Position numbers and translations under genes: made by a program. Positions 13,307 through 53,178 of a stretch of 64,000 bases of DNA are shown here, one piece after another. The notes under the pieces are model-generated. The model did no database searches. It had not been told where the DNA came from and worked only from the letters and a program-made list of their open reading frames with translations. The stretch lies in the NCBI GenBank assembly GCA_020627535.1, contig JAHDGU010000016.1, positions 1 to 64,000 on the forward strand. Reading direction: 5' to 3'. Each line of letters starts with the position of its first letter. Positions within the stretch are counted from its first letter, which is position 1. This DNA is from Saprospiraceae bacterium. Lineage in GTDB: Bacteria > Bacteroidota > Bacteroidia > Chitinophagales > Saprospiraceae.

Positions 13307-13322
13307 GGGCTTTCGCCCAAAT
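13307..13322 (+). repeat. NNNC-TTTC-GNNN-AAAW hairpin, stem GGGC/GCCC
   Basis: GGGC TTTC GCCC AAAT forms a perfect 4-bp stem with a TTTC loop and AAAT tail. It lies 8 bases before the start codon of the aldo/keto reductase gene. It is one member of the dispersed family described in the findings. Confidence 0.6.
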
Positions 13323-13329
13323 TGACTTT

Positions 13330-14313
13330 ATGAAGTATAGAAGATTTGGTAAGACTGACTGGCAAGTCTCTGAGATAGGTCTGGGTACGTGGCAGGTCGG
13401 TGGAAAATGGGGAAGCGGATTTTCATTCGACAATGCAGCAAGTATTCTAGAGTGTGCGATTGAGGAAGGCATCAACTTCATTGATACGGCGGATGTATAT
13501 GAAGCTGGACTGAGCGAGACCGCTGTAGGTAAAGCAGTGAGATCAGCAGATCATAAAATCTATGTGGCTACCAAGTGTGGCCGTCAGATCATTCCCCATG
13601 AAAATCAATACTACACGCCAGATGTCCTAGAGCGATATGTCGATCAGAGTCTGCTGCGCCTCGGGTTAGAACAGATAGACCTGATTCAGCTCCATTGTCC
13701 TCCGAGTGAGGTCTATGCCAGGGATGAGATTTTTGAGCGCTTTATACGCTTACGCGAAAAAGGGAAGATCGCTCATATGGGCGTAAGTGTCGAGAAGATC
13801 GATGAGGCCTTGCAAGCGCTAAACTATGAAGTGGTTTCCAGTGTGCAGATCATTTTTAATATTTTTCGTCAGCGACCAGCGGCGGAGTTTTTTGCGGAAG
13901 CTAAAAAAAGAGATGTAGCCATCATCTCTCGCGTACCTCTGGCTAGTGGATTGCTTACTGGCCTGTATTCTGCTGATACGGTATTTGGTAAGGAAGATCA
14001 TCGATCTTTCAATCGCAATGGCGAGGCATTTGACAAAGGAGAGACTTTCTCCGGTGTGCCCTATGAGGTCGGTCTGCAAGCAGTAGCAGAGATCAAGAAG
14101 GTAGCTCCAGATTTAGATAATTTGATTCCTCTTGCTCTGAGCTGGATTCTTTCCCATGAGGAAGTGTCTTGTGTGATTCCGGGTGTGTCTCGGGTGGGGC
14201 AGTTGGACTCGATCATCGCGAGTGAGAACTATGGATTATCGAGTCAGGCAATAGATCAACTCGGAGAGATCTATGATCGCCACATCCGCGAGTGGGTACA
14301 TGAGTCTTGGTAG
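13330..14313 (+). CDS. Aldo/keto reductase
   Basis: NADPH-dependent (beta/alpha)8-barrel oxidoreductase of 327 residues. The catalytic tetrad is present: Asp and Tyr in FIDTADVYEAGLSE, Lys in YVATKCGRQ, His in LIQLHCPP. Other family marks are the opening RRFGKTDWQVSEIGLGTWQVGG and the cofactor region (PLALSWILSHEEVSCVIPG). It resembles the YghZ/Tas-like group acting on small aldehydes and ketones; the substrate is unknown. The stop is 17 bases before the ATG of the AraC-type regulator, suggesting shared transcription. The start is 32 bases after the desaturase stop with a small hairpin in between. Confidence 0.93.
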   Translation: MKYRRFGKTDWQVSEIGLGTWQVGGKWGSGFSFDNAASILECAIEEGINFIDTADVYEAGLSETAVGKAVRSADHKIYVATKCGRQIIPHENQYYTPDVLERYVDQSLLRLGLEQIDLIQLHCPPSEVYARDEIFERFIRLREKGKIAHMGVSVEKIDEALQALNYEVVSSVQIIFNIFRQRPAAEFFAEAKKRDVAIISRVPLASGLLTGLYSADTVFGKEDHRSFNRNGEAFDKGETFSGVPYEVGLQAVAEIKKVAPDLDNLIPLALSWILSHEEVSCVIPGVSRVGQLDSIIASENYGLSSQAIDQLGEIYDRHIREWVHESW

Positions 14314-14330
14314 TCGAGAGATGCCACTTT

Positions 14331-15626: not shown

Positions 15627-15627
15627 C

Positions 15628-16335
15628 CTAGCACTTGGCCATCTTCTTTTTATGACCAATTCTACCCTTGTCTTCTACCTTCTTGATGTAGGCCGAGATC
15701 GCTGGGACTTTGCATGCGGTGTCTCCCATGTCCACCTTCACTTTACCAATTTTCTCTCCGAGTGCTTTGCATTTTTCTGTGAGCTCCGGTATGCCGCAGC
15801 CAGCAGCGATGATGAAGCCATTCATGGTGTAGCGGACTCTTCCATCGATCTCGTGTATTTGCGCAGCTGCCCGATCTACAAGGGCAGACCACTGGTCTAC
15901 ATCGATCTGGTCTGATGGGAGCAAGCCGGCTAGACTGCTCAGCGTAGCCCATCCACTGCTTGTGACATTGGGTTTGTCACTATCGATCCATTTGAGCGCA
16001 AGCTCGAGCCCATGAGGACTATCTGCAGCCGCCCAGGCGACACTATATTCCGAGATCATATACCATGGCGCTTTCTCCGCCCAAGACTGCAGATCCGCTT
16101 TGGTGATCTTGTCGTCGTCTGATATTAGCGCTGCGAGATACATGGCATCAGAGTTACCCGTGTTGAAGAGTTGTAAAGAGAGCTCATGGTCTTTTTTGAC
16201 CTTTTTGACGATTTTCTTAAGATCGGCGACCTTGACTCCGTACATGGGACAGTCTGCCCCATGTTTGCGATAAATATTCACTGTTCCTGGGTTGCCCATG
16301 GCTTCTAGCTGGGACATGACTTCTTTGAGTTGCAT
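15628..16335 (-). CDS. DNA alkylation repair protein (AlkD-like HEAT-repeat family)
   Basis: A 235-residue all-helical protein of the DNA alkylation repair (PF08713) group, whose AlkC/AlkD members remove alkylated bases through a HEAT-repeat cradle. Visible marks are MYGVKVADLKKIVKKVKKDHELSLQLF, WAEKAPWYMISEYSVAWAAADS and the lysine-rich C-terminus GHKKKMAKC. Many Bacteroidota homologues are annotated this way without tested glycosylase activity. It is the last gene of a minus-strand series, 10 bases after the cupin gene. Confidence 0.85.
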   Translation of the reverse strand: MQLKEVMSQLEAMGNPGTVNIYRKHGADCPMYGVKVADLKKIVKKVKKDHELSLQLFNTGNSDAMYLAALISDDDKITKADLQSWAEKAPWYMISEYSVAWAAADSPHGLELALKWIDSDKPNVTSSGWATLSSLAGLLPSDQIDVDQWSALVDRAAAQIHEIDGRVRYTMNGFIIAAGCGIPELTEKCKALGEKIGKVKVDMGDTACKVPAISAYIKKVEDKGRIGHKKKMAKC

Positions 16336-16345
16336 AGTACTTGTA

Positions 16346-18622: not shown

Positions 18623-20047
18623 TCAATTTGGAGCATTCGATGAGATCATGGACAATGATGAGATGACTGAACTGGCGGCAATGGCCATGATAAATGATGA
18701 AAATCCCAAAGTCCATTTTGGCGAAAGCCAGCCATAGTAAAAAGCAAAGACCAAGAGCAGCCCTATGATGATGCCCACTACAGCCCAAAAGGGACGATGC
18801 ATGCGCCCGAGCAGACAGATCGCGGCTGCGGGAAAGAGTACGGCTAGTCCAGAAAATGCCATCTTGCCCATGTCGAAGATGCTTGCAAAAGGGTGAAAGG
18901 AGATGCCAAGTCCGATGAGGGCGATGAAAAACACGATCACCCGTCCAGCCTTCACCTCCTGAAGATGTGTGCTTCTTGATCGCTTATGTATGCGAAGAAT
19001 ATCTCGGGTGAAAATACTGCTGAGCGCCAAGAGCTGAGAGTCCAATGTCGACATGAAGGCAGCGATCGCTCCGGTCATGATGAGTCCTTGGAACCAAGGA
19101 GGTGTATGTTTGGCGAGCATTAAAGGCAGTATTTTATCTGCTTCCTTGCCTTGTAAATCAGGGAAATCTACATGGCCCCAGATTCCAATCAGTACAGGCA
19201 ATATCGAAATCCCAATCGGAATAAGAGCATATAAAATAGCCGAGGTTTTCAATGTGGGGATGTCCTTTGCAGCAAAGAATCGCATAAATATCTGTGGAAA
19301 CATTGGGACGCAAAAGAACCAGAAAATCAAAAAGCTGAACCACTTTTTTATATCATACGCGCCATCAATGCTTGTGGAAGAGAATAAATCGGGCTTTTGT
19401 ATATAGACCTTTTCATTAATACTTGTAAATCCATCAAGTTGAGATGCAATATAAATCAGTGCTGCCAGCATGAATGTGATCATCAAAATACCTTGCTTTA
19501 CATCCGTCTTGGCAATGCTCTGTAGACCGCCGATGATTACGTATATGACAGTAAATACACTCAGTAAAATAATCGCGAGTCCATACGATATATTGCCACC
19601 TGTGATCTCTTCAAGAATATATCCACCACCTATGATCTGAAGCGCGAGATAGGGCAGCGTAAATATGATCATGACTACCGCAAAGAGCAAAGCAAGAATT
19701 TTGGAGTGTGATCTCGCGTAGATCAATTCTGAGGGTGTGATACTACTATGCTGCTTAGAATATTTCCATGCCGGAACGGCCAGAAGCAAGATAGAAAATC
19801 CTGCAAAGCCTGTGCCCAAAGCCATCATGATATAATGCACAAATCCAAGTCGATAGGCTTCACCTGCAAAACCTAGAAAATAGAAAGCACTAAAGTTGGT
19901 GGCAAGGATTGTAAAAAATAAGGAGAGCGTCGGTAGTGATCTGCCAGCTAAGAAATAGCCTTCAGCACTGCTCGTCTGTGCTTGTCTACCGGCCAAGCTA
20001 CTCCAAAATGTCAGTGCAATGTAAGCTATGAGGATAAAGTAGATCAT
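18623..20047 (-). CDS. Sodium:solute symporter (SSS family)
   Basis: Inner-membrane transporter of 474 residues using the sodium gradient. The ATG at 20047 is chosen because it overlaps the stop of the small upstream membrane protein as ATGA and starts at the first membrane span (MIYFILIAYIALTFWSSLAG). About 12-13 spans are visible. Family marks include EGYFLAGRSLPTLSLFFTI, NFSAFYFLGFAGEAYRLGF and MTGAIAAFMSTLDSQLLALSS. The substrate cannot be assigned from sequence. The 3' end holds one copy of the 16-nt hairpin motif (18715-18730) inside the coding sequence. Confidence 0.9.
   Translation of the reverse strand: MIYFILIAYIALTFWSSLAGRQAQTSSAEGYFLAGRSLPTLSLFFTILATNFSAFYFLGFAGEAYRLGFVHYIMMALGTGFAGFSILLLAVPAWKYSKQHSSITPSELIYARSHSKILALLFAVVMIIFTLPYLALQIIGGGYILEEITGGNISYGLAIILLSVFTVIYVIIGGLQSIAKTDVKQGILMITFMLAALIYIASQLDGFTSINEKVYIQKPDLFSSTSIDGAYDIKKWFSFLIFWFFCVPMFPQIFMRFFAAKDIPTLKTSAILYALIPIGISILPVLIGIWGHVDFPDLQGKEADKILPLMLAKHTPPWFQGLIMTGAIAAFMSTLDSQLLALSSIFTRDILRIHKRSRSTHLQEVKAGRVIVFFIALIGLGISFHPFASIFDMGKMAFSGLAVLFPAAAICLLGRMHRPFWAVVGIIIGLLLVFAFYYGWLSPKWTLGFSSFIMAIAASSVISSLSMISSNAPN
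18715..18730 (-). repeat. NNNC-TTTC-GNNN-AAAW hairpin, stem TGGC/GCCA
   Basis: On the minus strand TGGC TTTC GCCA AAAT, a perfect 4-bp stem. It lies inside the symporter coding sequence, where it encodes the residues W-L-S-P-K-W. The 18 bases TCCATTTTGGCGAAAGCC recur exactly at 29817-29834, between genes. Confidence 0.55.
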
Positions 20048-20235: not shown

Positions 20236-20304
20236 GGCAATGGTCGATTTCTGCAGAGATATATGCCTTGAACAAATGTAGAGGGATATCACTTAGCTTT
20301 GCAA

Positions 20305-20382: not shown

Positions 20383-20435
20383 TGATCTGTCCTGTCTCAC
20401 AGGGTATCCCGTCATGTATATCAATATGTCATACT

Positions 20436-22874
20436 ATGAAGAAGTGGATCGCCCAATTTGTATGCCTAGTAGGAGTGACTGGTTTGCTCGCTCAGTCTAG
20501 TATATCTGGTAAGATTATCAATGAAGATGGAGAAGCACTAGTAGGTGCAAGTATTGTGATATCTCCCTTGGAGAAGCTCTATGTGAGTGCAGATGACGGA
20601 TCCTTTATCGCTAGCTCTCTCTCAGATGGTCTTTATGATGTGCAGATCAGTTATGTCGGTCATGAGGATCACAGTCAGAGAGTAAATGTTCAAGGTAAGG
20701 ATATCAATTTGGCCACGATCATATTGAGGACCCAGACCAGAGTCTTTGATGCTGTGACCATCAGTGCTGAGGTACTCGATGACCTTGACCCCATCAGTCA
20801 CAGTTATGTCAATAAGGAAGAGCTCCAGAAACTCAATACGGCAAAGGATGTTCCTTTTCTTCTACGACAGACGAGTTCGACAGTGGTGACGAGTGATGCC
20901 GGGACAGGTATCGGCTATACGGGGATGAGAATCCGAGGTTCAGATGCAACGAGGGTCAATGTAACGATCAACGGTATCCCTCTCAACGACTCGGAGTCTC
21001 AGGGTGTGTTTTGGGTCAATATGCCTGACTTGGCTACGAGCACCAACAATATTTTGGTGCAAAGAGGACTAGGGGGATCATCTCTAGGATCCGGCGCCTT
21101 TGGTGCTACCGTCGGAATTGACACTCGGCAGGTAGAGGCAGAGCCGACGGTTCTCTTGAGCAATACGATTGGCTCTTTTGATACTAGGAGACATAGCTTG
21201 ACGCTCAATAGTGGTATGATCAATGAACACTGGAATTTCCAGGCAAGATTGTCGCGTATAGCTTCTGATGGCTACGTGGACAGAGCGACAGCGGATCTTC
21301 GATCATATTATCTCTCAGCGAATTATATAGATGACAAAAATTCTCTGAGTCTCATTCACTTTGCTGGCAAGGAGCGTACATATCAATCATGGTTTGGTAC
21401 ACCACAAGCCTTAGCAAATGGTGATGATCAAGGTATCGATGATTATTGCACGAGAAACTTCTTAAGTGAAGAAGATTGTCAAGCTCTCAGAAGTCAAGGT
21501 AGGACCTATAATTTTTATACCTATGAGGATGAAGTGGATGACTATGGTCAGGATCACTATCAATTACACTATGATCGCGTACTGACCGATGAGCTGAAAC
21601 TAAAATTGAGTCTGCACTACACGCAGGGAGCAGGTTTTTTTGAGCAAGAGCGGTTGGATGATGATTTTTCGGACTATGGCATCGATCCAATTACTGTAGG
21701 TGGCGAGACATTTGATACGGGTGATTTTATCCGACGTCGATGGTTGGACAATGATTACTATGGAGCTGTCCTCCGCTTGAATAAATCTGGAAATACAGAT
21801 GGCTTCGAATTTGGTGCTGCCTTCCATCGCTATCTCGGAGATCACTTTGGAGAAGTGATCTGGTCAGAATTTGGTGCAGCAGCGCCGAAGGACTTTCCGT
21901 ATTACTTCAGTGATGCGACCAAGGATGACTTTAATATCTACGGGAAGTATGAGCGCAAATTGACAGATAAGCTCAAGATGAATGTAGATCTTCAATATCG
22001 TCAAGTGAATTATGCCGGAGAGGGTGTCAATGATGATCTGAGAGCTTTGGATTTTTCACATGATTTTTCATTTTTCAATCCCAAGCTCGGACTCAATTAT
22101 GTCCTCAATGAACAGTCTGCTCTCTATGCCTACTATGGTAGGGGAAATCGAGAGCCGGATCGAAATGACTTTACCGAGTCCACGGGTACCGATCCGCGAT
22201 CTGAGCGCCTGGACAATGTCGAACTGGGATATCGCCTGCGCAAAGATGATCTGCAGGTGTCAGCCAATGCATACTATATGGGATATAAGGACCAGCTCGT
22301 GCTTACTGGTGCACTCAATGATGTAGGTGGTGCGATCAGGACCAATGTAGATGAGAGCTATCGTCTAGGACTCGAACTGGAAGCCGCCTATCATATCTCA
22401 AGTAAGCTATTGCTGAGAGGAAATCTGAGCCTCAATCGGACGAATATTTCATCCTTTGATGAAATTATTTTTGATTTTTTCAACAATGAGGAGATTGTCA
22501 TTCAGCATGAGAATACTGAGATAGCTTACTCGCCGGAGACAGTGGCTTTTTTGGGCTTGAGTTATCGGCCGCTGAGTGATTGGGAGCTAGGCCTTACGGC
22601 CAAATATGTCGGTGAACAATTTTTGGACAATACGTCAAATCCTGATAGAGCGCTCGAGTCCTATTTACACTCCGATTTCTTTGCGGCCTATGACTTCTCC
22701 ATCGGCCGTCCCAAGAATGGGCGAATAAATTTTCAGGTCTTTAATGTATTCAATTCGCTGTATTCCAATAATGGCTACACTTTTAGCTATGCTTTTTATG
22801 AGACTATCACGGAGAACTTTGTTTACCCCCAGGCAGATCGGCATTTTATGTTGAGCTTGGATTTGAGGTTTTAA
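20436..22874 (+). CDS. TonB-dependent receptor, probable thiamin uptake (TPP-riboswitch controlled)
   Basis: Outer-membrane active transporter of 812 residues. The ATG at 20436 starts signal peptide KKWIAQFVCLVGVTGLLAQ; the open frame continues upstream only because it crosses the riboswitch. Order: carboxypeptidase-like regulatory domain at about 23-100 (SISGKIINEDGEALVGASIV), plug at about 125-240 (LRQTSSTVVTSDAG, MRIRGSDATRVNVTINGIPL, RGLGGSSLGSGAFGATV), then the beta-barrel ending with aromatic FMLSLDLRF. The riboswitch points to thiamin or a thiamin precursor as substrate; this rests on regulation, not on residues in the barrel. It stands alone; no thiamin synthesis genes are in the window. 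Confidence 0.9.
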   Translation: MKKWIAQFVCLVGVTGLLAQSSISGKIINEDGEALVGASIVISPLEKLYVSADDGSFIASSLSDGLYDVQISYVGHEDHSQRVNVQGKDINLATIILRTQTRVFDAVTISAEVLDDLDPISHSYVNKEELQKLNTAKDVPFLLRQTSSTVVTSDAGTGIGYTGMRIRGSDATRVNVTINGIPLNDSESQGVFWVNMPDLATSTNNILVQRGLGGSSLGSGAFGATVGIDTRQVEAEPTVLLSNTIGSFDTRRHSLTLNSGMINEHWNFQARLSRIASDGYVDRATADLRSYYLSANYIDDKNSLSLIHFAGKERTYQSWFGTPQALANGDDQGIDDYCTRNFLSEEDCQALRSQGRTYNFYTYEDEVDDYGQDHYQLHYDRVLTDELKLKLSLHYTQGAGFFEQERLDDDFSDYGIDPITVGGETFDTGDFIRRRWLDNDYYGAVLRLNKSGNTDGFEFGAAFHRYLGDHFGEVIWSEFGAAAPKDFPYYFSDATKDDFNIYGKYERKLTDKLKMNVDLQYRQVNYAGEGVNDDLRALDFSHDFSFFNPKLGLNYVLNEQSALYAYYGRGNREPDRNDFTESTGTDPRSERLDNVELGYRLRKDDLQVSANAYYMGYKDQLVLTGALNDVGGAIRTNVDESYRLGLELEAAYHISSKLLLRGNLSLNRTNISSFDEIIFDFFNNEEIVIQHENTEIAYSPETVAFLGLSYRPLSDWELGLTAKYVGEQFLDNTSNPDRALESYLHSDFFAAYDFSIGRPKNGRINFQVFNVFNSLYSNNGYTFSYAFYETITENFVYPQADRHFMLSLDLRF

Positions 22875-25656: not shown

Positions 25657-25687
25657 CTGATCTATTCTTTGATGCAAATCTGAGCTT

Positions 25688-25703
25688 AGGCTTTCGCCCA
25701 AAT
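25688..25703 (+). repeat. NNNC-TTTC-GNNN-AAAW hairpin, imperfect (AGGC/GCCC)
   Basis: AGGC TTTC GCCC AAAT pairs at three of four stem positions and keeps the constant loop and tail. It lies 32 bases upstream of the start of the minus-strand T9SS gene, in the divergent gap. Confidence 0.45.
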
Positions 25704-25795
25704 ACCGTGGTTTCGATTTTTGGCGGACTTCGCCAGTTTTTTGGTTGTTGCATTCACCTTCTCTGGCCAGTCATCTTCGGATGGCTTGTGATTTC

Positions 25796-29804: not shown

Positions 29805-29819
29805 TCCTTCTTGAAATCC

Positions 29820-29835
29820 ATTTTGGCGAAAGCCT
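29820..29835 (-). repeat. NNNC-TTTC-GNNN-AAAW hairpin, imperfect (AGGC/GCCA)
   Basis: On the minus strand AGGC TTTC GCCA AAAT pairs at three of four positions. It lies 16 bases after the stop of the BNR-repeat gene and shares 18 exact bases with the copy inside the symporter gene. Confidence 0.45.
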
Positions 29836-33977: not shown

Positions 33978-34004
33978 TCCTTCACTTGTGAGCTTAGCTG
34001 CAGT

Positions 34005-35362: not shown

Positions 35363-35378
35363 GCGCTTTCGCGCAAAT
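35363..35378 (+). repeat. NNNC-TTTC-GNNN-AAAW hairpin, stem GCGC/GCGC
   Basis: GCGC TTTC GCGC AAAT, a perfect 4-bp stem with constant loop and tail. It lies between the Dabb gene (stop 35336) and the giant T9SS gene (start 35498). No other feature was seen in that gap. Confidence 0.6.
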
Positions 35379-35497
35379 GAATTGCGTCGTTCGTAGCAAT
35401 AACTAGGAAAAGAGCTAAAGTATACAGTGTTTGATTGGACGAAACAGCCAAAAAACTAGTCTATATTCACAGAGACCTCAAGGTCCAAAAACCAATC

Positions 35498-40094: not shown

Positions 40095-40104
40095 CTGATT
40101 TTCG

Positions 40105-40301: not shown

Positions 40302-43300
40302 ATGTTCAAGGATCTTGCTGCTTGTCTTAAGGCTTATTTGTACCTTCATGATACAATCCTCTTTGCCGTGAAATCCCTTTCCCCTCTTATATTTCTTGTT
40401 TTGGCCCTAGTCAATGGTCTATATGGGCAATCTTGTTTCAATTCCAACTTCGAGCAGGGCGATGCTGGTGCGTACAGCACATTTACCGGAAGGTTAGAGA
40501 CTGGAGTCCCAATCATAGATCAGATCGAGTATGATACCAATAGGCACCGCATCATGAGAGTGGATGAGGGGCTTGATCCAGTGGTAGAGAATTTGTGCCA
40601 AGACCTGGATCTTCCTGTGGTGTCGCCTAGTGGTGGTGCATATTCCATGCGACTTGGCAATTCATGGACAGGCTCGGAGGCGGAAAGTGTCAGCCTCAGA
40701 TTTACGGTGGATGAGCAATCGACCTTCTTCCTCTTGCAATATGCAGTGGTCATGGAGGATCCTTCACACACCTTCGATGACCAGCCCAGATTTGAACTCA
40801 ACATCAAGCGCACAGATGGAGAGCCTGTAGAGTGCGGTAGCTACGTCGTGAGGGCAGATGAAGAGCTAGAGGGCTTCGAAAGCTGCGGGATCCTGCGAGT
40901 GAGGCCGTGGACCACCGTAGGTATCGAGCTGCAAAGTTACCTCGGTGAGGAGATCATCATCGAGATTCTGACCACTGACTGCGGTCGTGGTGGGCATTTT
41001 GGCTATGCTTATTTTGACGCGACCTGTCAGCCGCTTTCGATAGAGGTGGTCGGATACTGTGAAGAGGCGGACTCGGCGATTGTCCGCGTGACTGAGGGAT
41101 TTGTGGATTACCTCTGGGATACAGGAGATACGACCAGCTCCATCGTCGACTATGACCCGGTCGAGGGTGAAGTCTACAATGTCACGGTGACTAGCGCTAC
41201 GGGTTGTACGCTTGTGCTCTCAGATACTTTACCACCTATTGAAGAAGTACTCGATCCTGTATTTCAAGGTCCGTTTGATAGTGTCTACTGTGGTGATCCA
41301 GAAAATTTTAATTTTCGACCGATTGTCTCTGATGCTTCTAGCATCTATTCTCTTTTTCATGGCTATGCAGCAGAACAGTTTCCGATTGATTTAGAACTAG
41401 ACACTTCCTACCAGTTTTATGCGGCCAATGATTATGGTTGCCTCAGTGATACCGTCACTTACCGATTTTCAACGGTGTCCCCAGAGCCTGATTTTATCGT
41501 CACGGCTCCATATTGCAGGGGAGAGGCGACTGGACGGATAGAAGTTGTCCAGAATCCCACTGACCCAGCCTACGAGGTCCTTTGGGAAAATGGTGAGACT
41601 GGTCTGATTTTAGAAAATGTGGCTACGGGGATCCATAAAGTCATTATTTCAAAGGACGAGTTTTGCGATGCCGAATTTTTTATTGAGGTGCCAGAGGCAG
41701 ATGGCTTTGTCCTGGACTATCGCTACTCTGCATCTGTCTGTGGTGATCAAGCGACAGCTTTTATTCAGTCAAGCGTGATCAATGCGTCTTTGCCAGTCAT
41801 GTACTCATTCAATGGAGGCGCATTTGAATTTGACGGTCAATGGAACAATTTGGGTCCGGGTGAGTATGTGGTCGTGGCGCGTGATGCTGCCAACTGTGTT
41901 TTGAGAGATACGTTCAGTATTGGCTCAAGACCTAGTCCGACTTTTCTCAATGATGTGCATGAGTTTGAGAGCTGCGATACCTTTATTACCATAGTTCCAG
42001 AAGTTGACTTTGCAGATCGGATCAGTTGGGTATTTGGACGGATTGATTCAGCGCTAGAAGTCAATACTGTGAATTTTTCAGAGGTGATTATCGAAGCAAA
42101 TTTTCAGAGTTGCAAGACGCTTGACACCTTTTATTTTAATCATCTTGGACCTCTCATCGAGGGAGATGTCGATCATCTGCTTTGCTACGACGATTCTTCT
42201 GGTGTGATTACGATTACTGATCTTAATGATGATCCATCCTTAGAATATGATTGGGGATTTTCTCGAGAAAATCGGATTACTGATCTCGCTGCGGGTACAT
42301 ATGCTGTGACCTTGACCAATGCTGCTCAGTGTACTGCATTTTCAGAGTTTCTTGTCAGACAGCCAGACTCACTCCAGTTGATCATTTCAAGCAGCTCCAC
42401 ACAAGAACTATGTGTGAATGATTCCACAGGTATTGTGTTTTTGTCGAGGCGTGGAGGATCTTGGCCCATTGAGTTTTCTATTGATGGTGTCAATTTTTCT
42501 TCTCAGTCGCGATGGGATAGTCTGCCGGCTGGTGAATACACATTTTATGCGCGAGATCGGAATGATTGTATGGCCGAAGTGTCTTATCGCATAGAAGAAG
42601 TTCCGACACCTCTTTATGAAGGTGAAGATCTCATATTGCTATGTGAGCGCCAGGCTTTTTTCGAAGTTCTTTTTTCGGATGCCTCAAGGGTATATTCAGA
42701 GTATCATGATGCATTTGGTTCTTCTTTTCTCATTGATCTGGATGTCGAGGATAGCTATCGTTTCATCGGATATAATCGTCTCAACTGTCCGTCAGATACA
42801 GTGGAGATTTCCTTCATGCAGCGAGATTCCCCAAGAGTAGAAGTACTTGTAGCAGACAATCTCTGTTTTGGAGATGCTACAGGTCGTATATCCCTGACAG
42901 TGCCGATGGACGCGAATGTACCATATACTTATCTATGGGACGATATGTCTATTGACTCAGTGCTTTCTGAGTTGCAAAGCGGCGCCTATTCCGTCACAGT
43001 CACAGATCGTTTTATGTGTGAGGCTACGTACACTTATCAAGTCACTTCACCCGCTCGCTTGATGGGCTCACATAGATTGATCAATGGGAATTCATGTGAA
43101 GGGCAACAAGATGGTGAGATCGAACTGCAGGCAAGCGGTGGCGTAGAACCTTATCTATTTTTACTGAGCGATGGACAAGAAGATTTTTTGGGCGGATTCT
43201 CTGAGCTGAGTGCAGGAATTTATATGTATAGCGTCAGGGACTCCAATGGGTGCGTGTTTTCTGATTCGTTTGACATCAAAGAAGTAAGTATAGACTCATT

Positions 43301-44495
43301 TGAACTGCAAGTAAGCCCAGAGACTTGTGATCTTGATAATGGAGCTATTGTGATTGGCGAAGTTTTTGGTGGCTTGGGTGCCAATCAGTATGGAATCAAT
43401 ATGGATGCTCTCGGTGAAATATCCGAGTTCGTGAATCTTGATTCTGGCAGTTATCTCATCCGTATCCGAGATAGTCTAGGATGCCAAATTGAGCAGGAGG
43501 TTCTTGTCCAGAGAGAATTGCCAGTCTCGATTATCAGATCAGAAGTTGTATCTACATCTTGTGATGAGCCAAACGGAGAGTTGAGGCTTGAGTTAAATTT
43601 TGAGAGTGGAACGCGCTCTTTTCTGATGGATCAAGAATTATTTTCTTTGAGCGTCGACGGTCTCGAGCCAGGTGCTTATACTTGGGTCGTTGAAGATAGT
43701 AATGGCTGCAGTGATAGTCTATCTTTTGATATTGACGGGAGTGAGCCCCTTGAGATCGTGGATGTAGACATACAAGAATTTCCATGTATATCTAGGACTG
43801 CAGACATAGAGCTCTTTCCGAATCGAGATATAGCCTTTTTGGATTATAGCATCGATGGGTCTGTGGGACAGTCCGAAGCAATCTTTATGGATGTTCCTGA
43901 AGGCGATCACCTCATTAGTATAGTAGATTCCAATGGTTGTCAAGCGCTGCTCGAGCTCGACTTACAACTAGTGGAGATGCTCTCTGTCGAGCCTCTTCTT
44001 GACGGAGCAGAGTGCGATAATTCTGGACAAGTATTTCTGGACCCTTCTGGAGGAATACCGCCATATATGTATAGCAGCGATTCAGTGAATTGGTATGGTG
44101 AGGGTGACTTTGAGAATCTTGCTCCTGGAGTTCAACTCTTTTACGTGAGAGATGACTCTGACTGTTTTCAAGAGGTCTTTGTGGATATTCCATTTTCCTG
44201 CGAGGTGTATTTTCCTACTGTGTTTTCACCCAATGGAGATGCTGTCAATGATGTCTTCAAGCCCTATCTGAATGACGAGGATTCTGTGACGATCTTGCGT
44301 CACCAGATTTTTGATCGCTGGGGTAATATGGTCTTTTCTTCGGTGGGAGTGCCTGTGTCACAGTATGATGCCTGGTGGAATGGCTCTTGGAAATCTCAGC
44401 CGGCACCTGTAGGTGTCTACACCTATGTAGTTGATCTTCTTTTTGTCAATGGTGAGCGTTTGAGATTTGATGGAGATTTTACTTTGATCAGATAG
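40302..44495 (+). CDS. Giant T9SS type B exoprotein with SprB-type repeats
   Basis: Secreted protein of up to 1397 residues. ATG 40302 is used; the GTG at 40368 would give a shorter, more usual signal peptide (KSLSPLIFLVLALVNGLYG), so the true start is unsure. A jelly-roll-like N-terminal domain (about 45-250: CFNSNFEQGDAGAYSTFTG, RPWTTVGIELQSYLGEEI) is followed by many SprB-type repeats with the pattern Cys, DG-x-I, GG-x-x-PY, F-x-x-L-x-x-G-x-Y, V-x-D-NGC. The type B sorting domain closes it (FPTVFSPNGDAVNDVFKP ... APVGVYTYVVDLLFVNGE). SprB is the main gliding adhesin of Flavobacterium; similarity of the repeats suggests a surface adhesin, though gliding is not proven. Confidence 0.87.
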   Translation: MFKDLAACLKAYLYLHDTILFAVKSLSPLIFLVLALVNGLYGQSCFNSNFEQGDAGAYSTFTGRLETGVPIIDQIEYDTNRHRIMRVDEGLDPVVENLCQDLDLPVVSPSGGAYSMRLGNSWTGSEAESVSLRFTVDEQSTFFLLQYAVVMEDPSHTFDDQPRFELNIKRTDGEPVECGSYVVRADEELEGFESCGILRVRPWTTVGIELQSYLGEEIIIEILTTDCGRGGHFGYAYFDATCQPLSIEVVGYCEEADSAIVRVTEGFVDYLWDTGDTTSSIVDYDPVEGEVYNVTVTSATGCTLVLSDTLPPIEEVLDPVFQGPFDSVYCGDPENFNFRPIVSDASSIYSLFHGYAAEQFPIDLELDTSYQFYAANDYGCLSDTVTYRFSTVSPEPDFIVTAPYCRGEATGRIEVVQNPTDPAYEVLWENGETGLILENVATGIHKVIISKDEFCDAEFFIEVPEADGFVLDYRYSASVCGDQATAFIQSSVINASLPVMYSFNGGAFEFDGQWNNLGPGEYVVVARDAANCVLRDTFSIGSRPSPTFLNDVHEFESCDTFITIVPEVDFADRISWVFGRIDSALEVNTVNFSEVIIEANFQSCKTLDTFYFNHLGPLIEGDVDHLLCYDDSSGVITITDLNDDPSLEYDWGFSRENRITDLAAGTYAVTLTNAAQCTAFSEFLVRQPDSLQLIISSSSTQELCVNDSTGIVFLSRRGGSWPIEFSIDGVNFSSQSRWDSLPAGEYTFYARDRNDCMAEVSYRIEEVPTPLYEGEDLILLCERQAFFEVLFSDASRVYSEYHDAFGSSFLIDLDVEDSYRFIGYNRLNCPSDTVEISFMQRDSPRVEVLVADNLCFGDATGRISLTVPMDANVPYTYLWDDMSIDSVLSELQSGAYSVTVTDRFMCEATYTYQVTSPARLMGSHRLINGNSCEGQQDGEIELQASGGVEPYLFLLSDGQEDFLGGFSELSAGIYMYSVRDSNGCVFSDSFDIKEVSIDSFELQVSPETCDLDNGAIVIGEVFGGLGANQYGINMDALGEISEFVNLDSGSYLIRIRDSLGCQIEQEVLVQRELPVSIIRSEVVSTSCDEPNGELRLELNFESGTRSFLMDQELFSLSVDGLEPGAYTWVVEDSNGCSDSLSFDIDGSEPLEIVDVDIQEFPCISRTADIELFPNRDIAFLDYSIDGSVGQSEAIFMDVPEGDHLISIVDSNGCQALLELDLQLVEMLSVEPLLDGAECDNSGQVFLDPSGGIPPYMYSSDSVNWYGEGDFENLAPGVQLFYVRDDSDCFQEVFVDIPFSCEVYFPTVFSPNGDAVNDVFKPYLNDEDSVTILRHQIFDRWGNMVFSSVGVPVSQYDAWWNGSWKSQPAPVGVYTYVVDLLFVNGERLRFDGDFTLIR

Positions 44496-44508
44496 CTTTC
44501 GCTAAAAT
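44493..44508 (+). repeat. NNNC-TTTC-GNNN-AAAW hairpin, stem TAGC/GCTA
   Basis: TAGC TTTC GCTA AAAT, a perfect 4-bp stem. Its first three bases are the TAG stop of the giant SprB-type gene. GCTTTTTTG follows, so this copy might also end transcription weakly. Confidence 0.6.
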
Positions 44509-44615
44509 GCTTTTTTGCTCTCTGCCATTTTGCGCCAAAGCCATGTCCTAGTGAGACTTTGAAGCAGATACGCCAGGATTTTCTAGCTGTGCTCATCCAC
44601 AGCCTACTTGTCATC

Positions 44616-44677: not shown

Positions 44678-46717
44678 ATGAAGACCTTATACACCTTGAC
44701 AACTTGCCTTGTGTGCATGATTGGCCTCAGAGCTCAGCACACGGAAATAGAGCATAACTCTAGCTCGACAGACCCTACGCTCCAGCTGACAGAGACCGAT
44801 ACGACGGACTTTGTGCGATTGCAGTTTATCAATGCTGTAGATCCCGATGCCAAGTGGGCGCTCTCTGCCAAGCCAATCCCAGGATCCTTTGATAATGATA
44901 ATTTGCTCAGTGAGCCGTTCATCTTTGCCAAGGATGGCCAGCAGGTGTTTGCAATCTCCGCGGATGGAGTAGTGCGTATCAACAAGGCGTACTTCCTGCC
45001 CAACTTCGCTGGGACCTCAGGCCAAATACTCAAAGCAGGACCAAATGGTGCAGTGTCATGGGTGGACAATGATGTCATTGTCGATGAAGATGGAGATACT
45101 GGGGTGGCTATGAGTGAGGATAGCGAAGACCAGCTCTTCTTCGTGGTAGATGATACTATCGGCATGCTTTTGAATAATGAAGGACTGAATATCAATGGAG
45201 AGTACACGCTGCCCAATGAAGATGGCATGATGGATCAAGTGCTAAGTACAGATGGTAACGGAAATCTCAGCTGGAAGGAATTGAGCAATGAACCGACGGA
45301 CGATGATGGAGATACCAAGATCAGCTTTGATGAATCACCTGCCGAGCGGATCAACTTCACTGTTGAGGATGTCGTACGTATGCGCATATCTGACAATGGG
45401 GTCCTGATCAATCAGGCCTATAGGTTGCCTCAGCTAGATGGTGGTGCTGGACAAGTCTTGACCACAGATGGCAGCGGTGTCACCTCTTGGTCATACATAT
45501 CCCAGATGGAAGATAGTGATGGAGATAGTCGCATAGAGTTTGTGGAAACACCATTTGAAGAGATTAGCTTTTTCCTTTCAGATACATTGGCTTTTCGCAT
45601 GCGGGAAAATCCTGGGGGCTTCGTAAGAATGGGCGGAGCTTTCAACGATGGAAATCTGATGATGGGCTACCAGGCCGGATTTGATATAGGTAAGAGCGGA
45701 ATATCTGGCGATGTGGCCAAAGGAAATCTCGCTTTGGGTATCAATGCAATGTTCAAAGCAGACAGCTCATTTAGATGTATTGCCTTGGGCACAGATGCAA
45801 TGAGATTGCATACAGGCGGCCGACACAATATTGCCATGGGCTATGGTGCATTTGAAATACTTGACCAAGGAGAGCAGAATACCGCACTCGGAAGTTTGAG
45901 TGGCACGCAAATGATCGAGGGAAGTCTCAATACATTTTTGGGATTCCAATCAGCGGGATTTTTGGAGTTTGGTACGAGAAATACATTTATAGGGGCATCA
46001 GCTGGGCGATCAGGCGCAACAGACACTGTACAACGCGCCATCTGTATTGGATTTGATGCGGGTTCAGGAAAAGTGAAAAGTGATGAGCTCTATATCGATG
46101 TGAATAATACAGCGAATCCATTGATTTATGGAAATTTTGCGACGGACGAAGTAGAGATCAATGGTGACTTAGATGTGGGTGAGCTGCATGTAGGTGGATT
46201 GATCATCGGTACGGTGACTCTTGGGAATAAGAGCATTGAGTCCAATAATGTGTCGTTCAATTTTGAGGATGATATATGGCCGACGGATGATGATGCGTAT
46301 GACTTGGGTAACACTGTCCGTAGATGGAAAACACTCTATACCATCAATCCTGTCGATGTGAGTTCTGACAGACGACTCAAAAAGAATATTGAGACACTAG
46401 ACTATGGGATTGCAGACCTGATGCAGATCAGATCAGTGGAATATCACTTGAATGCCCAAGATACGAACGAAAAAAAGCACCTCGGATTCATCGCGCAAGA
46501 AATGAACGAGATCATTCCTGAAGTGGTAGGTACGCCAGACAATCCTGATGAATATATGTCCATAAAATATTCAGAATTAATTCCCGTACTTGTCAATGCC
46601 CTTCAGGATCAGCAGGAAATGATTGATACTCTGACAGAGGAAAATAAATATTTCAAAAATGAGATCGCTGAGATCAAAGCCCTTTTGACGGAAGTCAAAG
46701 AGAAAGAGGCGGAGTGA
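44678..46717 (+). CDS. Secreted tail-fibre protein with S74 intramolecular chaperone domain
   Basis: A 679-residue secreted protein with signal peptide KTLYTLTTCLVCMIGLRAQ. The N-terminal half has three acidic repeats starting DEDGDTGVAMSE, DDDGDTKISFDE and DSDGDSRIEFVE, each followed by a beta stretch and a G-Q-V/I-L-T/S-T/A-D/G-G turn. A left-handed or trimeric beta region follows (about 330-470: NLALGINAMFKADSS, NIAMGYGAF, NTALGSLSG, NTFLGFQSA, NTFIGASAG). The C-terminal Peptidase_S74 domain is clear: SSDRRLKKNIETLDYGIADLM, HLGFIAQEMNEIIPEVV, YSELIPVLVNALQ and a coiled coil. S74 domains drive trimer folding and then usually cut themselves off. It forms the last large exoprotein of the region. 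Confidence 0.88.
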   Translation: MKTLYTLTTCLVCMIGLRAQHTEIEHNSSSTDPTLQLTETDTTDFVRLQFINAVDPDAKWALSAKPIPGSFDNDNLLSEPFIFAKDGQQVFAISADGVVRINKAYFLPNFAGTSGQILKAGPNGAVSWVDNDVIVDEDGDTGVAMSEDSEDQLFFVVDDTIGMLLNNEGLNINGEYTLPNEDGMMDQVLSTDGNGNLSWKELSNEPTDDDGDTKISFDESPAERINFTVEDVVRMRISDNGVLINQAYRLPQLDGGAGQVLTTDGSGVTSWSYISQMEDSDGDSRIEFVETPFEEISFFLSDTLAFRMRENPGGFVRMGGAFNDGNLMMGYQAGFDIGKSGISGDVAKGNLALGINAMFKADSSFRCIALGTDAMRLHTGGRHNIAMGYGAFEILDQGEQNTALGSLSGTQMIEGSLNTFLGFQSAGFLEFGTRNTFIGASAGRSGATDTVQRAICIGFDAGSGKVKSDELYIDVNNTANPLIYGNFATDEVEINGDLDVGELHVGGLIIGTVTLGNKSIESNNVSFNFEDDIWPTDDDAYDLGNTVRRWKTLYTINPVDVSSDRRLKKNIETLDYGIADLMQIRSVEYHLNAQDTNEKKHLGFIAQEMNEIIPEVVGTPDNPDEYMSIKYSELIPVLVNALQDQQEMIDTLTEENKYFKNEIAEIKALLTEVKEKEAE

Positions 46718-47335: not shown

Positions 47336-48654
47336 ATGCTCTTTCGATTCATTTCCCTCACGGCTTCCTCTATGCCTTTTGGCGAAAGCTGATACATGGG
47401 TATGAGCTGTCTGATCACTTGGATGCTAAAGACATAGTGCCAATACTTTTCTTTCTCAGGATTGAGCCATGCTATGCGTGAAAATTGCGCCGACATTTTT
47501 CGATATGTGTCCATGCTCGATTTGCTGAGTTCGTAGGGCGCCATAGATGCATCACCTACGATAAAGACGCGATATGCAGGGTCTTTGTCTAGTAGACTTT
47601 TTAGCGGAAGCGACTTTCTCCTAGCGGCATCAGTATAGACGCGATCATAGATCGTATTGTGGAAGTAGTAAGTCTCCATGTCATGGGCAAAACGGGTTTT
47701 CATCTTCCGGAAGAGTTGCTGCACCATTCGGACGAATGGATCCATGGAGTAGCCTCCGTTATCTATAAGGAGTAGGACTTGGAGTTTTTTGTGTTGATGA
47801 TGCTCTAGCTCTGGTAAAAAAAGGCCACCGCGCTTGATGCCATCTTTGATGGTTTTCGGTAAGTCAAGCTTCGTCTCAGCCGTCTCTTCCATGACGCCAT
47901 TGAGCGCGCTCAGCGCTGCATCGATATTGTCATCGTTGATGGTTCTATCTCGATCTACTGGAAAGTATTTACGATCATTGAGAATCATCCTCGCCATCTT
48001 TCCACCACCAGTGCCACCGACTCGTATGCCATCCTTGGCAGCACCTCCATGTCCATAGGGAGATATTCCTCCTGTACCGATCCAGTGACTACCACCTTGA
48101 TGCTTGCCTTTTTGTTGTTTCATGACCTCGCGCATCCGCTCGAGCAACTCCTCTAGACTTAAACCAGAATAGTCGGCCATTTGCTCCAGCTTGCTAAGTC
48201 TTGATTCTCCGTCAGTGTCTAGACCATCCTCGTCTTCTACATCACCGCTATCATTATTCCAGATTTCTTGCCCGTCAAGGATTTCTTTGATGTCATAACT
48301 TGTCAGATGTACTTCCGACAGGAATGTATCTACGAGCTCATCTACGTCTAGGTCGTCGCCAAAGCGATCTAGATTATCCTCTCTCCATTTTTTGAAAGTT
48401 TCTGATCTCAATATGGCGTCTAATAGCGTATCGCCTGGAGCGAAGTCAATTTGTAAAAAGTATTGATAAAATGCCTTGGTAAATGGACCTAGCTCCTTGG
48501 GATCTTTTACCACAGCGGCTCGCAAGATGGCATAAACATCTCCGAGCGTCTTACAGAGTCCTTTGATTGACGCTTTTTGTATGAGCAGAAGGGTGCGGAC
48601 GTCTGCATTAAGCCCATGCTCTCTGAGTGCAGATGGTAAACTTGCAAACATCAA
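47332..48654 (-). CDS. CoxE-like VWA-domain protein (MoxR partner)
   Basis: A 440-residue cytoplasmic protein of the CoxE/VWA group that works with MoxR AAA+ ATPases to fit metals or remodel protein complexes. The N-terminal half is helical (VRTLLLIQKASIKGLCKTLGDVYAILR), followed by an acidic linker, a Gly-rich loop (GTGGISPYGHGG), and the VWA domain from about 270. The MIDAS site, usually DxSxS, reads DNGGYS here, so the first Ser is replaced by Gly; this may be normal for the subfamily or a changed metal site. Only 3 bases separate it from the MoxR gene before it. A secreted Cys protein gene overlaps its end. Confidence 0.87.
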   Translation of the reverse strand: MMFASLPSALREHGLNADVRTLLLIQKASIKGLCKTLGDVYAILRAAVVKDPKELGPFTKAFYQYFLQIDFAPGDTLLDAILRSETFKKWREDNLDRFGDDLDVDELVDTFLSEVHLTSYDIKEILDGQEIWNNDSGDVEDEDGLDTDGESRLSKLEQMADYSGLSLEELLERMREVMKQQKGKHQGGSHWIGTGGISPYGHGGAAKDGIRVGGTGGGKMARMILNDRKYFPVDRDRTINDDNIDAALSALNGVMEETAETKLDLPKTIKDGIKRGGLFLPELEHHQHKKLQVLLLIDNGGYSMDPFVRMVQQLFRKMKTRFAHDMETYYFHNTIYDRVYTDAARRKSLPLKSLLDKDPAYRVFIVGDASMAPYELSKSSMDTYRKMSAQFSRIAWLNPEKEKYWHYVFSIQVIRQLIPMYQLSPKGIEEAVREMNRKSI

Positions 48655-51527: not shown

Positions 51528-51555
51528 TTCATCGCAAAGGTCATACATTTGGTAG

Positions 51556-52281
51556 ATGTCGAGCAATACCCATCAGGTCACATCACTTACTCTCTTGAAA
51601 TATCGCGGTACTCGACAAAAATGGCGTGGCTTTACACTGATGCAAAGGGGGCATGGTTTGCTACGAGACCTACCTGGACAACACGTCTACAAACTCATGG
51701 GCACGGGAAAGGGATTTGGCCTTAGAGATGGGGCTGACTTGTCTAGCTATGCTGTATTGCAAGTATGGGATGATGAGGCTTCCGCCAAAAGCTATTTTGC
51801 TTCTGATAGTTTTCTTCGGAAATTGACCAAAGGAACTTCCCAGTCATGTACCATCATGATGCGATGTCTGCGTGCTCATGGTGAGTGGAAGGGGGTGAAT
51901 CCTTTTGCTGTACATGAAGATCTCGATGCTGAGAATCATCTGATAGCGGCGATCACTCGAGCGAGTCTTCGTATTTCTACTTTAAGGAGTTTTTGGTCCT
52001 ATGCTGCAGTTGCGCAAAAACCCATTCACAATGCCACTGGTCTTCAATTTAAATTGGGTATCGGAGAGCATCCATTTTTACACATGGCGACATTCTCCAT
52101 TTGGAATTCGCTCTCGGATCTCAATGCATATGCCTACCAGACGAAGGAACATCTCAAAGCGATCAAGTTGACGAAGGAGAAGTCGTGGTATCGAGAAGAG
52201 TTATTTGCGAGATTTCAGCCTTATCAGATGATTGGGGCGTGGCCAGGACTAGACATCGATCTGCCGTCGCTGAGCGACTAG
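51556..52281 (+). CDS. crtA: CrtA-like carotenoid oxygenase (spheroidene monooxygenase family)
   Basis: A 241-residue protein aligning by eye with spheroidene monooxygenase: VTSLTLLKYRG at the start, MQRGHGLLRDLPGQHVYKLMGTG, AAITRASLRISTLRSFWSY, QFKLGIGEHPFLHMATFSIW, and YREELFARFQPYQMIGAWPG at the end. CrtA adds oxygen at C-2 of acyclic carotenoid ends. With crtD and cruF products it would act on a psi end group as found in saproxanthin or flexixanthin; the exact product is inferred. It is convergent with the methyltransferase gene, with 33 bases of overlap at their ends, and starts 28 bases from the divergent kinase gene. Confidence 0.8.
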   Translation: MSSNTHQVTSLTLLKYRGTRQKWRGFTLMQRGHGLLRDLPGQHVYKLMGTGKGFGLRDGADLSSYAVLQVWDDEASAKSYFASDSFLRKLTKGTSQSCTIMMRCLRAHGEWKGVNPFAVHEDLDAENHLIAAITRASLRISTLRSFWSYAAVAQKPIHNATGLQFKLGIGEHPFLHMATFSIWNSLSDLNAYAYQTKEHLKAIKLTKEKSWYREELFARFQPYQMIGAWPGLDIDLPSLSD

Positions 52282-53178
52282 TGTCATGATGCCATGAGAG
52301 GACTTTCGTCCAAATATGTTTCTTAGATCAAACAAGATTTTGTTCTTCACATAAGAAATCAATCGATCTTCCATGGAGTCTGACCAATTGATTTTTAGTT
52401 TCTCCATTTCACTCATCCAATAGAGATTGTAAGGATCCAGAGTGCCGTGGATGTCGACATATAGCGTATCCCACCCACATTGATCCAAAAGCATAGAGAG
52501 ATTGTCTGGCGAAAAAAGAGAGATGTGTCGAGGACTGTGCCATCCTGCCCACTCATTTCCATATCTTTTTCTGCTTTCAGAATCGTAGTTGGGTACTTCG
52601 ATGATCATGATGGCTTCATCTGAGGAGATATCATGTAGTCGCTGCAAGGAGGCTCTCGGATCGTAGTCATGCTCGAGATAGTGCCACATGGTCACAAGGT
52701 CTGGCGCCTTGCGAGGTTCATAGGCCGCTAATTCTTGCGTGGACAAATTCAGTAGCTCATAGCTTGGTTCATTTTTCCAGCCATGATCTGAAAAATCAAT
52801 GCCATAGCAGTCGGCTCCACTGCGCTCATGAAGCGCGAGGAGATAGCTTGGTTTCCCACAGCCTACATCCAATGCCGTAAAGTGCTGATTTGCGTCAAGA
52901 TGTTTGAGCGAAAGCTCGACACGTTTCTTGTCAGTATTGGCGAGACTTTTTGCTACGAGATTAGAATATTTTCCCCACGCTACAGGACCACGGTATGGCA
53001 GGTAATACTCCTGATAATAATCGCCGAGTTGCTCAGGAGCTACTGGGTTGTCAAGCCATACGAAGTGGCACTCTTCACATCTACGAAAGATAAAGTTCTC
53101 ACCGTCATACTGATGCATCATCGCCGTAGTCTCGGCGACGATTGTCGAATTACCACTTCCACAGATGTGGCAACTCAC
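52249..53178 (-). CDS. Class I SAM-dependent methyltransferase with N-terminal zinc-ribbon-like motif
   Basis: A 309-residue protein. The GTG at 53178 is chosen: its last two bases and the next A form the stop of cruF (GTGA), and residues from it start VSCHICGSGNS. The N-terminal Cys pairs (CHIC and CEEC, 32 residues apart) look like a zinc ribbon. The methyltransferase core has TALDVGCGKPSYLLAL (motif I) and DLVTMWHYLEHDYDP. Such N-terminal ribbons occur in Methyltransf_23-type enzymes acting on sugars and polyketide-like molecules. Position next to cruF and crtD suggests a carotenoid (or its sugar) is methylated; this is an inference. Two perfect copies of the 16-nt hairpin motif lie within the gene. 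Confidence 0.8.
   Translation of the reverse strand: MSCHICGSGNSTIVAETTAMMHQYDGENFIFRRCEECHFVWLDNPVAPEQLGDYYQEYYLPYRGPVAWGKYSNLVAKSLANTDKKRVELSLKHLDANQHFTALDVGCGKPSYLLALHERSGADCYGIDFSDHGWKNEPSYELLNLSTQELAAYEPRKAPDLVTMWHYLEHDYDPRASLQRLHDISSDEAIMIIEVPNYDSESRKRYGNEWAGWHSPRHISLFSPDNLSMLLDQCGWDTLYVDIHGTLDPYNLYWMSEMEKLKINWSDSMEDRLISYVKNKILFDLRNIFGRKSSHGIMTLVAQRRQIDV
52300..52315 (+). repeat. NNNC-TTTC-GNNN-AAAW hairpin, stem GGAC/GTCC
   Basis: GGAC TTTC GTCC AAAT, a perfect 4-bp stem. It lies inside the 3' part of the methyltransferase gene, which reads on the other strand. Confidence 0.55.
52902..52917 (-). repeat. NNNC-TTTC-GNNN-AAAW hairpin, stem GAGC/GCTC
   Basis: On the minus strand GAGC TTTC GCTC AAAC, a perfect 4-bp stem with AAAC in place of AAAT. 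It lies inside the methyltransferase gene. Confidence 0.5.

Follow-up and report, generated by a model that had tools for sequence, protein, structure and literature searches.

Known genome-wide tags, such as uptake sequences and Chi sites, are fixed words, and known dispersed hairpins, the repetitive extragenic palindromic (REP) elements, are copied by a transposase. Here we describe a short hairpin, ~16–17 nt long, that is dispersed through a 64,000-nt stretch of DNA (hereafter the window; positions 1 to 64,000 of contig JAHDGU010000016.1, assembly GCA_020627535.1) and through the rest of the genome of a Saprospiraceae bacterium. It is present in hundreds of copies, which retain base pairing, originate in place and keep a strand-wise spacing over kilobases; the feature is real, strong and unusual.

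The closest described systems are each similar only in part. DNA uptake sequences (DUS) of the Neisseriaceae and uptake signal sequences (USS) of the Pasteurellaceae also comprise hundreds to thousands of short genic and intergenic copies in both orientations, with dialects (PMC3630211, PMC1939737). Their dialects are linear (PMC3630211), whereas stem letters are free here and only the pairing is kept. DUS and USS are not palindromes and act regardless of orientation, and even spacing has been reported for them in work cited in PMC1939737, the accessible part of which does not mention strand-specific repulsion. By contrast, same-strand copies repel each other here and opposite-strand copies do not. 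Matches to the T2SSE ATPase family are weak and partial. REP elements with their REP-associated tyrosine transposase (RAYT, or TnpA-REP) and the ends of IS200/IS605 elements likewise combine a small hairpin with a fixed short flank, and IS200 and REP hairpins are read as single-stranded DNA (PMC6006769). Here, however, the source genome has no Y1 transposase, copies are mostly genic, not inserted and varied in stem, and the flank is AAATG (CATTT on the other strand), the canonical GT(A/G)G being absent. Chi sites, which are fixed linear words, share orientation dependence, shortness and high copy number, but the motif described here is not a fixed word and shows no orientation bias by contig. 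Finally, d(cGNNAg) tetraloops are known to be specially stable, and the loop rule found here, GN(A/C)A, resembles that class. Stable DNA mini-hairpins of the d(GCGAAGC) type (PMC10527192, on such related hairpins, tabulates 3-bp and 2-bp forms with melting temperatures of 88.5 and 76.5 °C) share the very short stem and the G…A loop of the CGAAAG strand; however, we found no genome-wide natural signal of that kind in our literature searches, and predicted DNA folding energies here are −2.8 to −4.9 kcal/mol. Literature searches, which did not cover most subscription papers or preprints, returned no such hairpin or uptake signal reported in Bacteroidota or in this group, and we suggest that this type of tag is previously undescribed.

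We analysed the source genome (4.09 Mb, 25 contigs), its congener G001 and further relatives, with detailed samples of 832 kb from the source genome and 709 kb from G001. In the source genome, GGCTTTCGCCNAAA, which represents one stem variant (the GGC-stem pattern), occurs 401 times (202 forward, 199 reverse) against 0 for its reversed control, and CTTTCGNNNAAATG 432 times against 3; in G001, CTTTCGNNNAAA occurs 640 times against 33. Core sites, which require intact inner pairs and exclude copies with one broken inner pair, number 236 in the source sample (one per 3.5 kb) and 177 in the G001 sample (one per 4.0 kb), which extrapolates to ~1,160 and ~870 copies per genome, respectively. Genes were predicted with a purpose-built simple codon-score caller rather than a standard annotator, and the scripts skipped sites that contain N or lie close to contig ends. 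Within the 664 predicted genes of the source sample there are 102 perfect T(T/G)TC copies, whereas 30 synonymous-codon shuffles give 1.3 on average (maximum 4); the G001 equivalents are 101 against 0.8 (maximum 3). In intergenic DNA there are 20 such copies in the source sample (mean 0.00 in 50 dinucleotide shuffles) and 31 in that of G001 (mean 0.02). As with DUS and USS, copies thus number in the hundreds or more in both genomes, far above chance. This large excess over shuffled and codon-preserving controls confirms that the dispersed repeat proposed from the window alone (hereafter the original prediction) is real and larger than first reported.

When copies are taken regardless of their tail, they give the consensus X Y C – T(T/G)NC – G Y' X' – (A/C)AAA(T/A)G, that is, a pairing-conserved stem with free X and Y, a C–G closing pair and the AAATG flank; on the opposite strand the loop reads GN(A/C)A. 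Both inner variable pairs are Watson–Crick at 188 of 209 T(T/G)TC sites in the source sample and 154 of 164 in the congener, while sliding the 3' side by 1–3 bases leaves them paired at no more than 40 and 35 sites, respectively. Perfect stems are likewise far more frequent than after random re-dealing of the 3' sides (source, 104 against a mean of 18.4; congener, 111 against 10.3). All four pair types occur at both variable positions in congener TTTC copies: the second pair is GC in 62, CG in 37, AT in 23 and TA in 8 (5 of 135 are non-Watson–Crick), and the third is GC in 64, CG in 45, AT in 14 and TA in 6 (6 of 135). Pair counts and slid-stem controls in two species therefore bear out the stem covariation described in the original prediction, and the 17 and 21 distinct perfect TTTC stems of the two species mean that there is no single fixed linear consensus. 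The hairpin form is strongly supported as the property that matters.

Among hairpins that combine the tail with a TTTC loop and three outer pairs, the closing pair is C–G in 104 of 111 from the source and 111 of 125 from the congener. With a perfect stem and tail, the source loops are TTTC (104), TGTC (22), TTCC (21), TTAC (12), TTGC (6), TGAC (5) and TGCC (4), and those of the congener are TTTC (111), TGTC (23), TTAC (15), TTCC (3) and TTGC (3); read from the opposite strand, the leading loops all conform to GN(A/C)A. The off-rule loops TTCT (4) and TCTT (3) are as frequent as the rarest conforming ones in the source genome, which are therefore not above background, and the TTCC class is partly suspect because common codons can produce it. 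The sequence profile is nearly flat beyond the motif and copies have little other DNA in common, apart from a preference for A immediately upstream (61 of 148 source and 56 of 143 congener copies) and, in G001, for C right after the tail (70 of 143). Folding energies differ by at most 0.5 kcal/mol between strands and cannot tell which strand is read. In six other genomes of the family, both inner pairs are intact in 22 of 30 copies taken as loci (G319 and G161, 5 of 5 each; G027, 4 of 5; G181 and G155, 3 of 5 each; G225, 2 of 5).

We then compared the gene context of perfect copies. Of 138 in the source sample, 113 lie inside predicted genes (65 sense, 48 antisense), with 24 intergenic and one at a gene edge; the 149 in G001 comprise 66 sense, 47 antisense and 36 intergenic. 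Copies occupy all three codon phases on both strands, so that the original observation of copies in and between genes and in differing frames extends to two genomes, and intergenic density is about twice coding density. Near-equal sense and antisense counts in all frames point to a signal at the DNA level. Both the structure and this DNA-level action are well supported.

Coding copies also reveal how the motif originates. Between the two samples, 46 reciprocal best ortholog pairs (at least 40% identity) yielded 38 motif instances alignable with the ortholog (23 from the source genome, 15 from the congener), the count being limited to copies with a perfect stem and to TTTC/TGTC copies in which two of the three pairs form. 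All but one of these (37 of 38) align without gaps. At one site both species have the complete motif, the stem being compensated between them (GGCC/GGCC in one, TCCC/GGGA in the other); at three more the partner species has a near-intact copy, and in the remaining gap-free cases the partner is equal in length and lacks the motif. Point changes therefore create and destroy copies, and insertion is excluded as their main source within genes; in accumulating by substitution in place, copies behave like DUS and USS. Pairs resembling miniature inverted-repeat transposable elements were considered and rejected, since close pairs have no common interior sequence evident by eye. Among the close pairs listed there is a single tandem cluster, in G001 (contig C49, 9757-9900), with three TGCC-TTTC-GGCA copies ~65 bases apart.

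Spacing between core sites is strand-specific. Of the pairs of adjacent copies in the two samples, 259 are oppositely oriented and 130 point the same way. When strands were permuted over all pairs less than 5 kb apart, 164 same-strand pairs were observed against 223.7 expected (standard deviation 10.5; lowest of 2000 permutations, 189), alongside 300 opposite-strand pairs; by species, same-strand counts are 115 against 148.6 and 49 against 75.0. Compared with random positions, same-strand pairs are too few in each distance bin up to 5 kb but not at larger distances; opposite-strand pairs are near expectation, with an excess below 300 bases (28 against 16.9). The deficit is seen whether the two inner stems are identical (33 against 49.6) or differ (131 against 174.1, with no permutation out of 1500 giving so low a count), and deletion between direct repeats is therefore insufficient to explain it. 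None of seven decoy words has a significant same-strand deficit (the lowest, CTTTCG without stem and tail, gives 221 against 228.2, standard deviation 9.6) and three show an excess. In own-genome contig samples of at least 60 kb, plus/minus counts are 34/30, 30/23, 9/6, 34/26, 8/9 and 10/8 (130/106 over the whole sample), with no clear contig-strand bias, whatever the GC skew. The longest tag-free stretch of the source sample, a single case, is 28 kb (contig C5, 150025-178179; expected longest 19 kb) and consists mostly of very long genes (3280, 1233, 775 and 2435 codons). Strand-wise action is provisionally supported in two species.

The window itself contains the following copies, of which the first fourteen lines have intact inner pairs and the last two lie outside the core set:

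13000..13016, plus strand: perfect hairpin GGTC-TTTC-GACC with tail, inside a fatty-acid desaturase gene
13307..13323, plus strand: perfect hairpin GGGC-TTTC-GCCC with tail AAATT, intergenic
15989..16005, minus strand: loop variant, hairpin GAGC-TTGC-GCTC with tail AAATG
18714..18730, minus strand: perfect hairpin TGGC-TTTC-GCCA with tail AAATG, within an SSF symporter gene
22590..22606, plus strand: loop variant, hairpin GGCC-TTAC-GGCC with tail AAATA
25688..25704, plus strand: hairpin AGGC-TTTC-GCCC with tail, outer pair open and inner pairs intact
29819..29835, minus strand: hairpin AGGC-TTTC-GCCA with tail AAATG, outer pair open, between convergent genes
35363..35379, plus strand: perfect hairpin GCGC-TTTC-GCGC with tail AAATG, intergenic
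36481..36497, minus strand: loop variant, hairpin AGAC-TGTC-GTCC with tail AAATG, outer pair open, antisense within a gene
38220..38236, plus strand: perfect hairpin GCGC-TTTC-GCGC with tail AAAAT, sense within a gene
44493..44509, plus strand: perfect hairpin TAGC-TTTC-GCTA with tail AAATG, overlapping the stop codon of 40302..44495
46681..46697, minus strand: loop variant of the weakest class, hairpin TGAC-TTCC-GTCA with tail
52300..52316, plus strand: perfect hairpin GGAC-TTTC-GTCC with tail, antisense in a methyltransferase gene
52901..52917, minus strand: perfect hairpin GAGC-TTTC-GCTC with tail, sense in the methyltransferase gene
47375..47391, minus strand: near copy CAGC-TTTC-GCCA with tail, one inner pair broken
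57937..57953, minus strand: near copy ATGC-TTTC-GCTT with tail, one inner pair broken

All seven perfect copies of the original prediction are present at their places, and the perfect copy at 13000 had been overlooked. The entries at 18715, 52902, 29820, 47373 and 57942 are minus-strand copies whose coordinates were off by at most about 4 bases. CTTTCG alone is not enriched in the window (30 observed against 28.4 expected; 13 of the 30 sites carry the AAA tail), so the signal is the combination of pairing and tail. Eight CTTTCG hairpins are perfect and carry the AAA tail, whereas 200 dinucleotide shuffles of the window contain 0.005 on average and never more than 1; the chance estimate of ~0.01 made earlier was about right.

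The motif is patchy inside one family and near background beyond it. Across 60 genomes including the source, GGC-stem pattern counts are high in the source genome (401), G030 (321) and G001 (148), moderate in G029 (57), G004 (56), G027 (47), G023 (25) and G031 (24), and at most 7 elsewhere. Across 298 family genomes, counts of CTTTCGNNNAAATG are clearly elevated in the genus of the source and in some members of genera g119, g60, g29, g27 and g88 (e.g. 117 against 4 for the control in G319 of g119). Of 296 genomes drawn from the phylum, 290 are outside the family, and their counts are close to those of the reversed controls (the top two being 17 against 13 and 16 against 6, with one small case of 8 against 1). 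At least one related genus has its own flank variant: in G030 the flank GAATG gives 462 matches to CTTTCGNNNAATG against 23 for the reversed control. Nearly all GGC-stem matches listed for G030 are GGCTTTCGCCGAAA (321 with the N pattern; five places read), which may be a separate word there. In GGCTTTCGCCGAAA, CTTTCG and CGAAAG overlap as an inverted repeat. Many G030 copies come after a T-rich run, as if just behind terminators.

Hairpin enumeration in the tag-poor genomes G003, G006, G007, G019, G022, G026, G032 and G033 detected no dispersed dialect in small samples of 20–60 kb (the 5-kb sample of G005 seems to be largely N). The leading hairpin words in G006, G007 and G033 were rejected as local repeats inside one 20-kb stretch each. 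By the phosphoenolpyruvate carboxykinase gene, the closest named relatives are three Saprospiraceae metagenome assemblies (67–70% identity), and the first cultured species among the matches listed is Phaeodactylibacter luteus (59%; Saprospirales in the NCBI lineage). Of 80 named relatives found with this gene, the 12 in which the motif was counted are at or slightly above control (maximum 13 against 4), with no tag-rich named strain among them. One 16-base variant, the only stem used in this search, matched 16 viral stretches with one copy each, one of which also has a loop variant.

We also searched for candidate machinery. The Pfam family Y1_Tnp, which represents RAYT, has no match in the source genome or G029 and is found in 23 of 32 genomes, tag-rich and tag-poor alike. 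The ComEC family is present in all 30 genomes tested. The T2SSE ATPase of type IV pili, the sole pilus family examined, just passes the cut-off in G007 and G029 when neighbours are counted (2 of 30 genomes) and does not in the source genome. These distributions indicate that none of the three accounts for the patchiness.

We tentatively favour the interpretation, with a probability of roughly 0.45, that the motif is a chromosome-wide self-tag read as a shape on single-stranded DNA, with a separately spaced set of hairpins on each strand, and that the tag-bearing strand is favoured in gene transfer or recombination. Because the pairing is retained while the letters are free, and because the motif is nearly indifferent to transcription, folded single-stranded DNA is the likeliest form to be recognized. 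Strand-wise spacing over ~5 kb suggests that any advantage from a copy extends only along its own strand in that range; such spacing fits transforming or recombining single strands or a polar enzyme. From this we infer a biological role: the tag perhaps serves recognition of the cell's own DNA in gene transfer. A possible sequence of events is that (i) the tag would be read while DNA is single-stranded and folded as a mini-hairpin, 5'-CATTT-(K)XYC-GNMA-GY'X'; (ii) a putative reader protein would act on the strand that bears it; (iii) tagged strands would preferentially be taken up, protected or recombined in within-species gene transfer; and (iv) tagged alleles would spread by molecular drive, as proposed for uptake sequences (a model discussed in PMC1939737). 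A second tag on the same strand within ~5 kb might add little and one on the complementary strand might add more, which would produce strand-specific spacing. If confirmed, the motif would testify to a process that works on long single strands inside the bacterial cell, and would imply a new putative reader protein in Bacteroidota.

Several observations weigh against the self-tag interpretation. (i) The strand spacing was noticed in the data rather than predicted beforehand, and its replicate in G030 (excluding 4 single-site contigs of 100 listed) has the same direction but is weak: neighbours less than 2 kb apart are 13 opposite and 4 same, those at 2–5 kb are 8 and 8, and p is 0.16 below 5 kb. 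(ii) ComEC occurs in tag-rich and tag-poor genomes alike, so it does not explain the patchiness, and T2SSE gives only weak partial matches, in 27 of 30 genomes. (iii) Genic copies have a mild sense excess (65:48 in the source genome and 66:47 in G001). (iv) Pairing is looser in G027, G225, G181 and G155 (both inner pairs are intact in 2 to 4 of 5 copies). (v) Contrary to a simple foreign-DNA prediction, tags are not depleted in genes with atypical codons in either sample: when genes are divided into fifths by codon typicality, the source genome has 2.58 tags per 10 kb in the least typical genes, 2.31 in the most typical ones and 3.74 in the fourth fifth, and the congener has 2.06 (least typical) and 1.86 (most typical). 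The longest tag-free stretch of the source sample, a single case, is 28 kb (contig C5, 150025-178179; expected longest 19 kb) and consists mostly of very long genes (3280, 1233, 775 and 2435 codons).

A possible, if doubtful, alternative is a Chi-like polar signal for recombination or translocation, in which a moving enzyme reads one orientation on the unwound strand and changes activity, each strand stretch being selected to meet one copy. An orientation-dependent signal to stop or start would require strand-specific spacing over several kilobases, which is observed, and hundreds of genic and intergenic copies would fit as well; however, orientation is balanced inside contigs (130/106 overall, the replication origin not being mapped), and the stem is free, unlike the fixed linear words of Chi.

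It is unlikely that the motif is an ordinary double-stranded uptake sequence of the DUS/USS type, read on the duplex with pairing as a side effect. Copy number, scatter, substitution origin and flank dialect are like those of DUS and USS (PMC3630211, PMC1939737), and an orientation excess in reading frames, comparable to the mild one found here, has also been reported for uptake sequences (PMC2346458). However, known uptake sequences are non-palindromic and orientation-independent (PMC1939737), whereas all four pairs occur at two stem positions here and spacing is strand-specific; T2SSE matches are also weak. The suggestion of an uptake-type signal in the original prediction therefore stands in part: the dynamics (copy number and substitution origin) fit, but neither a fixed linear consensus nor orientation indifference was found, the same-strand deficit being set against an expectation derived from PMC1939737 rather than from measured DUS/USS spacing.

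We consider it improbable that the hairpin initiates or primes replication, or its restart, on single strands. Per-strand spacing would suit such a role, and stable single-stranded hairpins are known as priming or assembly structures, but lagging-strand use would bias orientation by replication arm and contigs are balanced whatever the GC skew. Patchiness within one family is also ill-suited to an essential replication signal.

Spread of REP-type hairpins by a RAYT/TnpA transposase that has since been lost is largely refuted and highly improbable. The fixed short flank lies 5' of the hairpin foot on the GAAA strand, as in IS200/REP anatomy (PMC6006769), and Y1_Tnp is present in several tag-bearing relatives (one partial match in G001, two each in G030 and G027, and four in G004). 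However, neither the source genome, which is the richest in tags, nor G029 has a match, and tag-poor genomes can have many (seven in G003, eight in G010). REP elements are mostly extragenic and spread by insertion, but most copies here are genic (113 of 138), share little DNA outside the motif and, at 37 of 38 coding sites, are substitutions in place. The RAYT-like transposase envisaged by the original prediction thus finds no counterpart in the source genome.

A mutational by-product is hardly credible; in this view, stems would be perfected by quasi-palindrome correction, and same-strand neighbours would be lost by deletion between direct repeats. Template switching does make perfect stems, and same-strand pairs with identical stems are depleted below 5 kb (33 against 49.6), but the deficit is also clear for different stems (131 against 174.1), stem perfection is confined to tagged loops (other loops with stem and tail are rare), and the fixed loop and flank as well as the absence from most relatives are left unexplained. 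An RNA-level element (terminator, processing or binding site), the RNA form raised by the original prediction, is the least tenable, for although most complementary-strand loops fit GNRA (GAAA, GGAA, GTAA and GCAA), the second commonest (GACA) does not, sense and antisense copies are nearly equal in all frames and both species, and the tail is AAATG without a T-run. Intrinsic terminators were rejected on that tail and on the occurrence of copies at all gene positions and on both strands.

At gathering thresholds, Rfam models match only a tRNA and a thiamine pyrophosphate (TPP) riboswitch in the window, and none matches at the hairpins. The TPP riboswitch (20302-20392, plus strand; 54.6 bits against a threshold of 54.3) lies ahead of a TonB-dependent receptor gene, so the start of the open reading frame at 20223 is probably too early. 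A tRNA-Lys (TTT) gene (40104-40177, minus strand) lies between two very long open reading frames (1532 and 1397 codons). At 33138-34877, two neighbouring pirin-family genes precede a gene of the Dabb (stress-responsive A/B barrel) type, and the large proteins encoded at 22942-25701 and 29918-32725 (a DUF6923 repeat protein and a subtilase, respectively) have type IX secretion C-terminal domains.

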